This document shows, piece after piece, positions 33,501 to 55,476 of a stretch of 64,000 nt of DNA (its first letter is position 1; every line of letters begins with the position of its first letter). The notes under the pieces are model-generated. The model did no database searches, was not told the origin of the DNA, and was given only the letters and a program-made list of their open reading frames with translations. The position numbers and the translations under genes were made by a program. Origin of the DNA: Lachnoclostridium sp. An196 (GTDB taxonomy: Bacteria > Bacillota > Clostridia > Lachnospirales > Lachnospiraceae); the NCBI RefSeq assembly GCF_002160135.1, contig NZ_NFJZ01000001.1:372001-436000 (forward strand), given 5' to 3'.

Positions 33501-33785
33501 ATGGCAGCACAGCAGGCCCTTGGAATGATTGAAACCAAAGGATTGGTTGCATCCATCGAAGCGGCGGATGCAATGGTAAAAGCAGCGAATGTGACGCTGA
33601 TCGGAAAAGAGCATGTAGGCGGCGGCCTGGTGACCGTTATGGTAAGAGGCGACGTGGGAGCAGTAAAGGCGGCTACGGACGCGGGAGCAGCGGCAGCAGA
33701 GAGAGTGGGAGAGCTGGTATCTATCCATGTAATCCCGAGACCGCACGAGGAAGTAGAAGCGATCCTTCCGTCCCTCGGCAAATAA
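33501..33785 (+). CDS. eutM: Microcompartment shell protein EutM, copy 1
   Basis: A 94-residue single-BMC hexamer-forming protein, the main facet component ([59 protein letters not shown]). It differs from copy 2 at three or four residues: KEHVGG against KVHVGG, and EAILPSLGK against ESILPSLDK. These lie near the hexamer surface or C-terminus. Confidence 0.97.
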
Positions 33786-33815: not shown

Positions 33816-34100
33816 ATGGCAGCACAGCAGGCCCTTGGAATGATTGAAACCAAAGGATTGGTTGCATCCATCGAAGCGGCGGATGCAATGGTAAAGGCAG
33901 CGAATGTGACGCTGATCGGAAAAGTACATGTAGGCGGCGGCCTGGTGACCGTTATGGTAAGAGGCGACGTGGGAGCAGTGAAAGCAGCTACGGATGCGGG
34001 AGCAGCGGCAGCAGAGAGAGTGGGAGAGCTGGTATCTATCCATGTAATCCCGAGACCGCACGAGGAAGTGGAATCCATTCTGCCTTCTCTTGACAAATAA
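33816..34100 (+). CDS. eutM: Microcompartment shell protein EutM, copy 2
   Basis: A 94-residue near-identical copy of the preceding gene with the same AAGGAGG ribosome site. A stable hairpin follows at 34123. Two identical strong copies raise the dose of the major facet protein. Confidence 0.97.
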
Positions 34101-50433: not shown

Positions 50434-51365
50434 TTTATCAAACAGGAAAGACTGAATTTTATACAGAGGGACCTTCTGCGGTCAGTATCGGAAAATTTGA
50501 CGGGCTGCACCGCGGGCATCAGAAGCTGATCGGACGGCTGCTGGAGCAGAAAAAGAAAGGGCTTCAGACTGTGATATTTACTTTCGAAAAAAATCCCACC
50601 AGACTTCTCTCCGGGTTGTCAGGGAAAAATATCCTGACCAACGAAGAACGCCGCAGGATGCTGGAGGAGGCGGGCATTGACCGCCTTCTGGAATGTCCGT
50701 TTGTCCCGGAGATCTCCCATATGGAACCGGAAGATTTCGTGGAGGAAATACTGGTGCGCCAGATGAAGGCGGCCTACGTGGCTGTAGGCAGAGACTGCGG
50801 ATTCGGATATCAGAGGCGGGGGGACAGCAAGATGCTGGTCAGCCTGGGAGAAGAATACGGATTTCTGACCGAAATTATTCCGAAAGAACAGAGTCACGGT
50901 CAGGATATCAGCAGCAGCTATATCCGGGAGGCTCTGCATGAAGGAAATATTCCTCTGGCAAATGAACTGCTGGGATACCCGTATTTTGTCAGCGGAGAGG
51001 TGCTGCATGGCCGCCAGATCGGCAGGACGCTGGGACTTCCGACTACAAATCTTCTGCCTGCGCCGGAGAAACTGCTCCCCCCCAACGGGGTGTACCTGAC
51101 CAGAACCGTTCTGGATGAGGGAGAATACTGCGGCATCACCAACGTGGGATATAAGCCCACAGTGGGCGGCGAGACAAGAAAAGGCGTGGAGACCTATCTT
51201 TTCGATTACAGCGGAAACCTGTACGGCCGCTTTTTGAAAGTGGAATTTCTGGAATTCCGGCGTCCGGAACAGAAGTTCGGGTCCCTGGATGAACTAAAAT
51301 CACAGATACTTTCCGATGTTCACTGGGGAAAGAATGTTCTGATAAATCAAAAGTCAAAGACCTAG
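50430..51365 (+). CDS. ribF: Riboflavin kinase / FAD synthetase
   Basis: A 311-residue bifunctional enzyme: N-terminal adenylyltransferase (VSIGKFDGLHRGHQKLIGRL, ISSSYIREALHEGNI) and C-terminal flavokinase (GRQIGRTLGLPTTNLLPAPE, GVYLTRTVLDEGEYCGITNV). It overlaps truB by 4 bases and ends the operon. No clear terminator follows it before the copA promoter. Confidence 0.97.
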   Translation: MIYQTGKTEFYTEGPSAVSIGKFDGLHRGHQKLIGRLLEQKKKGLQTVIFTFEKNPTRLLSGLSGKNILTNEERRRMLEEAGIDRLLECPFVPEISHMEPEDFVEEILVRQMKAAYVAVGRDCGFGYQRRGDSKMLVSLGEEYGFLTEIIPKEQSHGQDISSSYIREALHEGNIPLANELLGYPYFVSGEVLHGRQIGRTLGLPTTNLLPAPEKLLPPNGVYLTRTVLDEGEYCGITNVGYKPTVGGETRKGVETYLFDYSGNLYGRFLKVEFLEFRRPEQKFGSLDELKSQILSDVHWGKNVLINQKSKT

Positions 51366-51372
51366 TCCGCTC

Positions 51373-51401
51373 TTGACAAAAGCAGGGAACTGTGCCATAT
51401 T
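51373..51401 (+). promoter_or_regulatory. Promoter of copA-csoR
   Basis: TTGACA at 51373-51378, a 17-base spacer and CATATT at 51396-51401. The CsoR-like operator begins 10 bases downstream. Confidence 0.6.
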
Positions 51402-51410
51402 AATAACAGG

Positions 51411-51427
51411 ACACCCCGGTGGGGTGT
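51411..51427 (+). promoter_or_regulatory. CsoR-type copper operator
   Basis: ACACCCC-GGT-GGGGTGT is a perfect inverted repeat with C and G runs, like the known CsoR sites (TACCCC...GGGGTA). It lies at the transcription start between the -10 box and the copA ribosome site. CsoR itself is encoded at 54043. It could also be read as a short hairpin, but the T-run after it is only three bases. Confidence 0.7.
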
Positions 51428-51437
51428 TTGAAAGGAG

Positions 51438-54032
51438 ATGGCACAGGTGAAACAAAAGTTTGATGTGACCGGCATGAGCTGCAGTGCCTGCAGCGCTCAT
51501 GTAGAAAAAGCAGTCAGCAAAGTGCCGGGCGTAGACCGTGTCCAGGTCAATCTGCTCCAGAATACCATGGAAGTGGAATACGAGCAGGGGGCTGCGGACG
51601 CGGATAAAATCATAAACGCCGTGCAGGAGGCAGGATACGGAGCTTCCGTGCGCGGAGGACAGAAAGACCAGGCAAAGGAGAAGAATGAGCTTCAAAAGAA
51701 GACCGCGGACGAAGCGCGGAAGATGAAGCACCGTCTGGCATGGTCGATCGCGTTCCTGCTTGTTCTGATGTATGTGTCCATGGGACACATGTTTGGATGG
51801 CCGCTGCCGGGGATTCTGCTGGGAGAGAAAAATGTAATGGTGTTCGCGCTTACCCAGCTTTTCCTGACGCTTCCGGTCATGTATCTGAATCGAAAATATT
51901 ATGAGAACGGTTTCCGGTCTCTGCTTCACGGCGCGCCCAATATGGACACGCTGGTGGCGATGGGTTCCACGGCAGCCGCAGGCTACAGTGCCGCGCAGCT
52001 GTTTGTCATGGGCTATGAGCTGGGAAGAGGAAATCTGGAAGCGGCGCACATGAGCGCGATGAACCTGTATTTCGAGTCGGCGGCCATGATCCTTGCGCTG
52101 GTGACCATAGGGAAATACATGGAGAGCCGCTCCAAGAGCCATACCTCCGATGCGTTGACCAGGTTGATGGACCTGGCGCCTAAAACTGCTCTGGTCTTAC
52201 GGGACGGCAGGGAGATGGAGATCCCTTCCGAAGAAGTACAGCTGGGCGAGACAGTCATTGTAAAACCGGGGCAGTCGATACCGGTGGACGGTATTCTCAT
52301 AGAAGGAACAGGAACGGTGGACGAATCTGCCATTACCGGCGAGAGTATTCCGGTGGAGAAAAAAGCCGGAGACCGGGTGACCGGAGCGACTGTGAACAGG
52401 GCCGGATATTTTCATATGAAGGCAGACCGGGTGGGCGAAGATACGACGCTTTCCCAGATTATCCGTCTGGTGGAAGAAGCGGGAGGATCCAAAGCTCCTA
52501 TCGCAAAACTGGCGGACAAAGTAAGCGGTATCTTCGTACCGGTCGTGATCACGATCGCGCTGATTACCATTGCGGTCTGGCTGCTGGCAGGACAGAGTTT
52601 CAGCTTCGCGTTGGCGTCCGGAATCGCCGTGCTCGTGATCTCGTGTCCGTGCGCGCTTGGCCTGGCTACCCCTACGGCAATCATGGTTGGAACCGGCCGC
52701 GGGGCAGAGCAGGGCATCCTGATTAAATCCGGCGAGAGCCTGGAGACGGCCCATCTGGTAGACACAGTGGTCCTGGATAAGACGGGAACCGTCACCCAGG
52801 GGCGTCCGGAGCTGACGGATATCCGGACCGCGGAAGGCGTACAGGAGCAGGAACTCCTGATGCTGGCCGGTTCTCTGGAGCAGGCGTCGGAGCATCCGCT
52901 GGCGGAAGCCATTGTAGACGGAGCGAAAAAACGCGGCGTACCCCTGGAAAAGGTAGAAGATTTTTCCGCTGTGTCAGGACAGGGAGTGCTGGGAACAGTC
53001 CGGGGCAGGAAAGTACTGGCGGGAAACCGGAAGATGATGGAAGAAAACGGCATCAGTACGGAGAACTTAAAAGAGGCTGCCGGATTACTGGCAGAAGCGG
53101 GAAAGACAGCGCTCTATATCGCGGCGGACGGTCGTCTCCTGGGACTTGTGGCCGCGGCTGACCAGGTGAAAGAAACCAGCGCGCAGGCGATCCGTGAGAT
53201 GGAAAAGATGGGGCTTTCCGTGGTTATGCTTACCGGCGACAACGAACGGACCGCAAAGGCGATTCAGAGACAGCTGGGCATCAGCAGGGTTGTGGCGGAG
53301 GTCCTTCCCCAGGATAAGGAAAGAGAAGTGCGCAGGCTGCAGGAAGAAGGCCATAAGGTGGCCATGGTCGGCGACGGCATCAACGACGCGCCCGCTCTTG
53401 CCAGAGCCGATGTGGGTATCGCGATCGGGGCAGGCACGGATGTGGCGATTGAATCTGCGGATATTGTGCTGATGAAGAGCGACCTGCTGGACGCGGCGGC
53501 AGCCATCCAGCTCAGCCGGGCGGTGATCAAGAATATTAAAGAGAATCTGTTCTGGGCGTTCTTTTATAATGCGCTGGGCATTCCGCTGGCGGCGGGAGTC
53601 TTTTACCCGTTTCTGGGATGGCAGTTAAGTCCTATGTTCGGAAGCGCGGCCATGAGCTTCAGCTCTGTGTTCGTAGTATCGAACGCGCTGCGCCTGAAAG
53701 GATTCCGTCCTTCTTTCCGAAAGAAAAAAGAATTGACGGCATGCCCGGTTCCTGCGGCAAAGGCAGAGACCGGGGTTCCGGATACAGAACTGGAAAACAA
53801 TACAGAGCGTAAGGAGGAAAAGAAAATGAAGAAGACGATGAAGATTGAAGGCATGATGTGCGGACACTGCACCGGCAGAGTGGAGAAGGCACTGAACGCG
53901 CTGGATGGCGTACAGGCTGAAGTGAGTCTGGAAGACAAAGCGGCTTATCTGACCATTGACGGGGATGTCAGCGACGACACGCTGAAAAAAGCAGTGGAAG
54001 ACGAAGGCTATCAGGTCGTCGGCATCGCGTAA
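51438..54032 (+). CDS. copA: Copper-exporting P1B-type ATPase with C-terminal CopZ-like domain
   Basis: An 864-residue membrane pump. The N-terminal HMA domain has [11 protein letters not shown] (Cys15, Cys18). About eight transmembrane segments follow. Motifs are [10 protein letters not shown], the metal-site [13 protein letters not shown], phosphorylation site [18 protein letters not shown] and [16 protein letters not shown]. The C-terminus carries a second HMA domain from residue 797 ([17 protein letters not shown]; Cys808, Cys811) after a Glu/Lys linker. AAGGAGG lies just upstream of the in-frame ATG 53826, so a separate CopZ may also be made. ATG 51438 follows GAAAGGAG. Confidence 0.96.
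53811..53828 (+). promoter_or_regulatory. Internal ribosome site and start for a CopZ-like chaperone
   Basis: AAGGAGG at 53811-53817 and an ATG at 53826-53828, 8 bases later and in the copA frame. Initiation here would give a 68-residue HMA protein (53826-54032) with a GMMCGHC motif. The spacing is ideal and the site coincides exactly with the domain start. Confidence 0.7.
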
Positions 54033-54042
54033 GGAGAGAGGC

Positions 54043-54306
54043 ATGCAGGCGGACCGGAAAAAGATTGAACGTCTCTTAAAGACTGCGAAAGGTCAGATCG
54101 ACGGGATTCTGCGCATGGTGGAAGAAGACCGGTATTGCATGGATATATCGGCTCAGGTCATGGCGACAGACGCCATCCTGCGGAAGGTAAATAATGAAAT
54201 CATACGTGCCCACATGAAGGGATGTGTGAAAGAAGCTATTCTGGAAGGAACCGGAGATGAGAAGATCGATGAGCTGATGGCGGTGGTAGATAAGCTCACA
54301 AAGTAG
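54043..54306 (+). CDS. csoR: CsoR-family copper-sensing repressor
   Basis: An 87-residue all-helical repressor. The copper ligands fit Cys32 (YCMDI), His57 and Cys61 (RAHMKGC), the C-H-C set of CsoR proper. N-terminal KIERLLKTAKGQIDGILRMV is family-typical. Copper binding releases DNA. It lies 10 bases after copA with AAGGAGAG and is probably autoregulated through the operator at 51411. Confidence 0.93.
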   Translation: MQADRKKIERLLKTAKGQIDGILRMVEEDRYCMDISAQVMATDAILRKVNNEIIRAHMKGCVKEAILEGTGDEKIDELMAVVDKLTK

Positions 54307-54336
54307 TAGAAAGAAGTAGAAAAATAGAATCAGACA

Positions 54337-54365
54337 TTGACAAAAACTCCTATGTGTTATAGAAT
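54337..54365 (+). promoter_or_regulatory. Promoter of the NlpC/P60 gene
   Basis: TTGACA at 54337-54342, a 17-base spacer and TAGAAT at 54360-54365. A 50-base AT-rich leader follows. Confidence 0.75.
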
Positions 54366-54420
54366 TGTATTCGAAATGTAATAAATGTAATAGTTCTGTA
54401 ATAATTATAGGAGTTTGTCT

Positions 54421-55476
54421 ATGTTCGTATTCAATAGTAGAAATAAAAGATGGATCGGAAGCATGGGAGCGGTCCTGATGGGAGCCGCGGTTGTATGCGT
54501 GCCGATGGATGTACAGGCGTCCGGAGCGCTGGGAAGCAGCAGTCAGGTCGGCATATCCGCGGATCTGGAGGCAGTGGAAGATACTTCAGTCCTGGAAGTA
54601 GCCATGAACGATATCGTGATCTCCGAATTCAATCTGGACGGATATTCCAATCTGGGTATCGTAACGGTTTCCGAAGGAAAAGTCAATATTCGCGAGACCC
54701 CTTCCACAGACGGCAAGATCGTTGGAAAGATCGGAAAAGACGCTGGCTGTGATGTGCTTGGCGAGGAAGGCGAATGGCTTCACATCAGATCCGGAGAAGT
54801 GGAAGGCTATATCAAGGCAGAGTACGTGCTGACCGGTACAGACGCGCTGCAGCAGGCGTCCACGCTGCTGAAAAAGGTGGCAAAAGTAACCACCGACGGT
54901 TTGAAAGTGAGAACAGAACCGAATACCGAGTGCGAGATTCTGGATATGGTTGGATCCGGACAGAATTTTGACGTGCTGGAAGAGTTGGACGGATGGGTTC
55001 GCATCGATCTGGACGGTGAGACCGGATATCTTTCCACAGATTACGTGGAAGTGGGATCTCAGCTGGACGAAGCGCTGACGATTTCCGAGCTGCTCTACGG
55101 CGAAGGCGTCTCGGATGTGCGCGTGGCGATTTCCGACTATGCGAAGCAGTTTATCGGCAATCCTTATGTATGGGGCGGCACCAGCCTGACGAATGGCGCG
55201 GATTGTTCCGGCTTCGTACTGTCTATCTTCAGTCATTACGGCATCAGCCTGCCGCATTCTTCCAGAGCGCAGGCGAACTGCGGAACGACGATCGGTACCA
55301 GCGAATTGCTTCCGGGCGATCTGGTATTCTACGGAAACGGTTCCGGTATCAACCATGTAGCTCTCTATGTGGGCGGCGGACAGGTAGTGCACGCCAGCAA
55401 CGCGCGCGTGGGCATCACGATTTCCAGCGTGAACTACAGAACTCCGGTGAAAGCGGTCAGACTGATTCAGGATTGA
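54421..55476 (+). CDS. Secreted SH3-domain NlpC/P60 peptidoglycan hydrolase
   Basis: A 351-residue exported endopeptidase. Signal peptide 1-30 (MGAVLMGAAVVCVPMDVQAS) is followed by two bacterial SH3 domains at about 80-140 (VNIRETPSTDGKIVGKIG) and 155-215 (LKVRTEPNTECEILDMVG). The C-terminal NlpC/P60 domain has the catalytic Cys in NGADCSGFVLSIFSHYGISL and the His in NHVALYVGGGQVVHAS. It probably cleaves wall stem peptides during growth or separation. ATG 54421 follows AGGAG at 7 bases. Confidence 0.94.
   Translation: MFVFNSRNKRWIGSMGAVLMGAAVVCVPMDVQASGALGSSSQVGISADLEAVEDTSVLEVAMNDIVISEFNLDGYSNLGIVTVSEGKVNIRETPSTDGKIVGKIGKDAGCDVLGEEGEWLHIRSGEVEGYIKAEYVLTGTDALQQASTLLKKVAKVTTDGLKVRTEPNTECEILDMVGSGQNFDVLEELDGWVRIDLDGETGYLSTDYVEVGSQLDEALTISELLYGEGVSDVRVAISDYAKQFIGNPYVWGGTSLTNGADCSGFVLSIFSHYGISLPHSSRAQANCGTTIGTSELLPGDLVFYGNGSGINHVALYVGGGQVVHASNARVGITISSVNYRTPVKAVRLIQD

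Follow-up and report, generated by a model that had tools for sequence, protein, structure and literature searches.

According to Meydan and to Drees (both 2017), Escherichia coli reportedly has a frameshift-made copper chaperone, CopA(Z). In the accessible parts of three reports, this product is traced to the 5′ part of E. coli copA and to −1 frameshifting (PMC5009743, PMC10187127, PMC9548414). In-frame internal initiation, which yields genes within genes, is described for RpnL/RpnS in the available text of PMC10327210. For the CsoR regulon of human gut Firmicutes, the accessible portion of Hobbs et al. 2016 concludes that CopZ-type chaperones are absent (PMC4938975).

Here, these systems are compared with a copA gene in the window, by which we mean the whole 64,000-nucleotide stretch of Lachnoclostridium sp. 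An196 DNA analysed. Taken together, the sequence comparisons make it very probable that a copZ gene has been fused in frame to copA, that its ribosome-binding site has been kept by selection, and that one gene thereby yields both pump and, via internal initiation, chaperone. The proposed route would involve: joining of an adjacent copZ in frame to copA, with its own ribosome-binding site and start codon retained; initiation at GTG 51447, giving an 861-residue pump that has a metal domain at its N terminus and, on a C-terminal linker, a CopZ-like one; and initiation at ATG 53826 by ribosomes bound at TAAGGAGG (53810-53817), giving a free 68-residue chaperone that would carry Cu(I) to the pump. 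The template for the short product may be the full mRNA alone or a shorter processed mRNA as well. The arrangement of signals suggests that initiation at ATG 53826 takes place in the cell, and the free domain is expected to be stable and to act as a chaperone. Presumably copA, copZ and csoR form one operon, placed under copper control via CsoR.

The copA locus

The copA gene, carried by a 3.25 Mb genome, lies in one uninterrupted open reading frame on the plus strand (51438-54032) that has no internal stop. Its true start is probably GTG 51447, although the mechanical reading frame begins at 51438. This codon is preferred because ATG 51438 abuts the Shine-Dalgarno (SD) sequence AAAGGAG (51431-51437), from which GTG 51447 is spaced by 9 nt. 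The product scores 613.8 bits against TIGR01511 (ATPase-IB1_Cu; cut-off 397), which identifies it as a P1B-1 copper ATPase. A profile search finds PF00122, PF00702 and two stretches of PF00403, and the translation contains both the CPC membrane motif expected of CopA, as SCPCALG, and the CxxC of its HMA domain, as GMSCSAC. Among the best 80 of 592 matches, the closest named record is the Lachnospiraceae genome UBA7182, at 82% over the CopA protein. The features of the locus are collected in Table 1.

Table 1. Features of the copA region, in positions of the window.
Feature	Position	Strand	Basis
Sigma-70-like promoter TTGACA-17-CATATT, upstream of copA	51373..51401	+	Consensus scan, weak
G/C-tract palindrome ACACCCCGGTGGGGTGT, candidate CsoR operator	51411..51427	.	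Inverted repeat seen
Shine-Dalgarno AAAGGAG of copA start	51431..51437	+	Sequence
copA, P1B copper-transporting ATPase, 861 aa, N- and C-terminal HMA	51447..54032	+	ORF list, profile matches
N-terminal HMA of CopA	51459..51638	+	Profile matches
Putative internal Shine-Dalgarno TAAGGAGG, −12.1 kcal/mol with anti-SD	53810..53817	+	Sequence, duplex energy, relatives
Internal in-frame ATG, proposed CopZ start	53826..53828	+	Sequence, ORF list, relatives
Proposed nested copZ, 68-aa HMA, GMMCGHC copper site, complete beta-alpha-beta-beta-alpha-beta fold	53826..54032	+	PF00403, PDB relatives, AlphaFold2
TAAGGAG, copA/copZ stop overlapping SD of next gene	54030..54036	+	Sequence
CsoR-family metal-sensing repressor, 87 aa, next gene, likely same operon	54043..54306	+	PF02583, 88.4 bits

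The palindrome ACACCCCGGTGGGGTGT sits between the sigma-70-like promoter and the copA start, and we take it to resemble CsoR operators. If it is one, the operon would be ruled by its own last gene. The promoter assignment is weak, since the scanned stretch holds three promoter-like sites against 2.1 expected by chance. No consensus promoter was found on the plus strand between that of copA and that of the next gene (51401-54337), and no known RNA motif reached gathering scores over 51000-54500. Elsewhere in the window, an aldehyde-dehydrogenase-like gene is followed by two near-identical tandem 94-residue genes (33501-33785 and 33816-34100) with identical ribosome-binding sites, presumably of the bacterial microcompartment shell protein kind.

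The internal start and its predicted product

The original prediction had placed an AAGGAGG, followed after 8 bases by an in-frame ATG, exactly at the boundary of the C-terminal HMA domain, with a 68-residue product. The sequence agrees on each point. The full SD, TAAGGAGG, is longer than AAGGAGG and lies 8 nt from ATG 53826; the TAA within it is a stop in the −1 frame only. Translation from this ATG to the stop at 54030-54032 gives 68 residues, of which PF00403 covers 4-63. Against the PDB, phmmer aligns residues 2-64 with residues 3-67 of the 69-residue CopZ 2qif. The strength of the site is unusual for the gene: the best SD among the 23 ATG codons of this copA's core is −7.3 kcal/mol versus −12.1 at the internal start, and across 278 relatives only 3/5,892 core ATG codons reach −12 kcal/mol. 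Sequences of the form AAGGAGG-N5..9-ATG occur seven times in the whole window, compared with a shuffled mean of 1.3. The predicted RNA fold of 53700-53900 is not unusual overall (z −1.1), and it leaves SD and ATG in an unpaired stretch.

The 68-residue product belongs to the HMA/Atx1-like family, matching the whole PF00403 profile (1-62 of 62) at 52.3 bits against a cut-off of 24.8. AlphaFold2, run on a 30-sequence alignment, predicts a complete HMA fold with a mean pLDDT of 93.3. In length, fold and start position the product is that of a stand-alone CopZ. It misses all three NCBIfam CopZ cut-offs (NF047957, 66.8/85; NF033795, 60.5/91; NF033794, 53.8/95), which the full-length protein clears only by summing two matched stretches. 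For this reason it is called CopZ-like here by its origin, size and expected role.

Conservation among relatives

Matches to CopA were drawn from: 145 related genomes; a scan of named genomes (best 80 of 592); and class and phylum samples, fetched in part. The 286 loci examined gave 278 unique loci with a usable anchor, after removal of five duplicates and of three loci without the anchor motif (the unfused L211, and the fused L244 and L249, which have Met at the boundary and were left unscored). Of these, 215 have a fused C-terminal HMA, 32 a separate HMA gene downstream and 29 neither, with two unknown; because the loci were picked by similarity to a fused query, these proportions are not a measure of prevalence. 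The presence of SD and start played no part in selection. One of the six search peptides, MKIEGMMC, does contain a Met, which lies five codons before the motif Met and is distinct from the start Met.

Fused loci include isolate records, among them Anaerotignum lactatifermentans An390, [Ruminococcus] torques ATCC 27756, Evtepia gabavorous KLE1738 and Eggerthella sinensis DSM 16107. The class-labelled loci provide named examples from Clostridia (59), Negativicutes (6), Coriobacteriia (2) and Erysipelotrichia (1). By a loose motif, csoR lies near fused copA downstream in 40/207 and upstream in 99/204 fused loci.

The main scoring rule took the best in-frame ATG 6-16 codons before GMxCxxC and called an SD at a duplex energy of −5.5 kcal/mol or lower. 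By this rule SD and ATG stand at the boundary in 205 of the 215 unique fused loci, and in 172/215 at −8 or lower. A rule blind to the SD, which takes the most upstream ATG at 6-14 codons, finds an ATG in 209/215, with an SD of −5.5 or lower in 193 and of −8 or lower in 160; several of its failures reflect an extra upstream ATG, for example within the SD itself (ATGGAGG), with the proper ATG after it. Among the 205, GGAGG occurs in 108 and GGAG in 168, and the ATG follows the aligned SD by 7-10 nt in 187. The signal is present in every member of 166/175 genus-level groups, unlabelled loci being counted singly. Judged from these sequences, the nested-start arrangement in copA is widespread.

The ten misses comprise: five loci with a weak SD (−4.9 to −5.4 kcal/mol); L223, which has AAAGGAG and, at the same place, GTG instead of ATG; and four startless loci (L064, L084, L134, L165). 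For two of these, L084 and L165, the genome contains a CopZ-like gene that stands free (L303, L304). For L064, an HMA reading frame of another type lies just downstream of copA, and for L134 no clear free CopZ was found among the HMA matches inspected.

In one further locus, L230, the linker is interrupted by one in-frame TAA, and HMA, SD and ATG are intact; it was tallied as separate architecture, and L226, of the same genus code, is fused. This may represent a natural split after which the chaperone would rely on the internal start, or, as the genome is a draft, a sequencing error.

Constraint on the RNA

Other domain boundaries and other ATG codons of the same genes serve as controls. Where two or three HMAs stand in tandem at the C terminus (L136, L166, L062, L224, L260), none of the six inner domains has SD and ATG, and the signal precedes the last HMA only. 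At second or later N-terminal HMAs, an ATG is found in 1/26 and an SD in 0/26. Among in-frame ATGs of the pump core, 885/5,939 (15%) have an SD of −5.5 kcal/mol or lower and 117/5,939 (2%) one of −8 or lower.

Across the loci, each of the three codon registers is used by the SD (136, 63 and 6 loci), with at least 32 register changes on a FastTree core tree of 278 rows, so that the linker peptides differ (KEE, QEE, KGE, KGG, MEE, RRE) while the SD stays. Codon choice follows the same direction. Lys-Glu dicodons are written AAGGAG in 80/99 cases in the SD zone versus 155/770 elsewhere in the same genes, and Gly is written GGA in 69/95 versus 4,035/14,069. The mean SD energy is −9.70 kcal/mol as observed versus −6.24 when codons are recoded synonymously according to the usage of the gene concerned, and the observed SD is stronger than its own null mean in 196/210 loci. 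Peptide content explains part of this strength, because Lys-Glu-rich linkers can spell AAGGAG unaided (recoded mean −6.2); at single loci the excess over recoding is often modest, with p < 0.05 in 30/210. The set-level P values are tiny and assume an independence that related sequences lack.

Folding of the start region is fairly compared with synonymous recodings, and in 167/210 loci it shows weaker folding than these recodings do on average (−1.0 versus −2.2). This effect is smaller than that against random gene windows (+6.7 kcal/mol, n=144), which is confounded by A-rich linkers. An SD arising by chance or driven by the peptide was considered and rejected on set-level codon choice, register changes and the domain controls. 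Read at the level of the whole set, the constraint acts on the RNA and not on the peptide.

Origin of the C-terminal domain

The original prediction also raised the possibility that the C-terminal domain derives from fusion of neighbouring copA and copZ genes, for which relatives with the two genes apart are the natural reference. Such relatives exist, 32 of the 278 having an HMA gene downstream, and they resemble the fused loci in SD strength and start offset. Their SDs average −8.9 kcal/mol, with 28/32 at −5.5 or lower. An offset of nine codons between start and motif Met is seen at 167/205 internal starts and in 20/32 separate copZ genes, and the internal product has a median length of 69 residues. 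A tree was built from 165 HMA domains: 61/215 fused C-terminal, 6 inner, 40/274 first N-terminal, 26 further N-terminal and 32 separate. In it, C-terminal HMAs group with free CopZs and are parted from N-terminal HMAs by a single change with local support of 84, in an alignment of 69 columns that leaves 13/162 branches firm. These data lend moderate support to a copZ ancestry of the C-terminal HMA, in line with the fusion envisaged.

Other HMA proteins in these genomes

Beyond copA, the window's genome (97% complete) contains two HMA matches, by eye a small protein of DCANC type and a GMTCRNC domain that follows a hydrophobic stretch at the N terminus. A search elsewhere in this genome found no GMxCxxC CopZ that looks soluble. 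As the other two matches differ in type, the nested domain is the only soluble-looking GMxCxxC candidate found there. A Megasphaera genome (G819) has the internal start plus a soluble-looking, free CopZ-like gene (L316), and G014 and G016 have the internal start plus a small HMA of another type. Over 20 selected HMA-match regions, strict complementarity (internal start or free copZ, never both) was not established.

Two candidates for a free CopZ, both from genomes with the nested start, were rejected. L315, at a contig end (G006:C15), proved to be the 3′ portion of a second fused copA; it belongs to the closest relative of the window's genome, and its HMA boundary again carries a Met, KEDKTMTKTITIEGMMC. 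In L309 (G044), a hydrophobic segment occupies the N terminus. Small HMAs of this kind, in which such a segment and a Cys/Gly-rich stretch precede the domain, are also seen in L004, L308, L310 and L317, the last of which ends just before copA. A recurrent small HMA protein with GMxCGMCEAHVN, unlike CopZ, is found directly after copA downstream of L064 and in L313 and L314.

Alternative explanations

If copZ was fused to copA long ago, SD and ATG could be functionless leftovers, with only the two-domain pump mattering. A fusion origin is likely, and a leftover signal would be expected at first. A relic should have decayed, however. The signal is found in 205/215 loci and throughout the membership of nearly all genus-level groups, and it persists although pump cores are 50-65% identical to the query in 188/205 loci with the internal start and the linker between membrane part and C-terminal HMA ranges from 17 to 184 residues. 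Codon choice favours the SD, which also stays as its register shifts. This makes a relic very unlikely. In the literature, SD-like sequences have been suggested to slow elongating ribosomes, and the position of this SD, after the membrane part and ahead of a distinct domain, would suit a pause that aids insertion or folding without any initiation. Pausing would not need a start codon, yet an ATG follows at 7-10 nt in 187/205 loci and is substituted once by GTG, in L223; nor would it account for inner tandem HMA boundaries having no such site (0/6), or for a distance from the membrane part that varies more than 10-fold. That the SD serves pausing is accordingly judged extremely improbable.

A free chaperone could instead arise by proteolysis of the linker or by −1 frameshifting of the kind known from E. 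coli copA, with the SD incidental. In favour are a −1 frame reading frame (53618-53812) that ends at the TAA of TAAGGAGG (53810-53812) and a run of A6G at 53724-53730. Against this, the T ahead of AAGGAGG continues the SD consensus by one base and is common to only 36/205 loci; the A6G run is out of X-XXY-YYZ register, and slippage at that run would truncate the pump rather than free the HMA. The gene also departs from the E. coli type in that the product is C-terminal and in frame 0, and the end of the N-terminal HMA was checked by eye. Proteolysis leaves the conservation of SD and start codon unexplained. Either origin has a very slim chance of being correct. A sequencing or assembly error could hide a stop between two ordinary genes, and the original prediction had itself raised the concern of a sequencing error of this kind. 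Separate HMA genes do occur downstream of copA in 32/278 relatives, but the in-frame fusion recurs in 215 unique loci, isolate records among them, which effectively excludes such an error and reduces its probability to a negligible level. The prediction of internal initiation within copA is upheld by comparison, through the 205/215 loci, the negative inner-domain controls and a codon choice that favours the SD.

Comparison with known systems

Considering the classes sampled, it is probable that the supposedly missing copZ of Clostridia, Negativicutes and some Coriobacteriia and Erysipelotrichia is nested in copA, independently of E. coli frameshifting, and that both the fused and the free copy are under selection. 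Among the matches listed in the open-access literature, with subscription papers mostly outside it, no prior report of CopZ made via internal initiation in copA was found. A nested copZ is readily missed because a gene finder calls one open reading frame. The study of gut Firmicutes by Hobbs et al. 2016 concerns the same kind of lineages and genes (csoR, copA), and its accessible text makes no mention of a C-terminal CopZ domain or an internal start; a nested copZ would offer an explanation for the absence of CopZ from that copper regulon, as far as the text available describes it (PMC4938975).

Loci with separate copA and copZ, represented by the 32 relatives and by the NCBIfam CopZ models of Bacillus subtilis and Enterococcus hirae, belong to the same domain family. 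They are alike in SD strength and in start position relative to CxxC, and they differ in having a stop codon between the genes, where here the reading frame is open through both.

The parallel with E. coli that accompanied the original prediction stands as an analogy: on the accessible descriptions, there too one gene encodes the pump together with a small soluble protein of about 70 residues that binds copper. It does not extend to mechanism or to the part of the gene, since CopA(Z) comes from the 5′ part by −1 frameshifting, whereas here the 3′ part, a C-terminal CopZ-derived domain with its own SD and start, would be made by initiation. If correct, this represents a second, mechanistically unrelated route to copper pump and chaperone from one gene, and a clear convergence. 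An SD and start confined to the last HMA, in registers that change, form a signature that could be sought in further fused proteins and may reveal hidden genes.

With an in-frame start and SD inside a longer open reading frame and conservation at the RNA level, the locus has the properties of a gene within a gene. RpnL/RpnS, in the available account, is alike in that a C-terminal domain is made both within a long protein and separately from an internal start. That pair is toxin and antitoxin; the pair proposed here is metal pump and chaperone, is known from sequence, and has a domain of separate-gene origin. Genes within genes by internal initiation are already known, and the pairing of pump and chaperone would be a variant of them.
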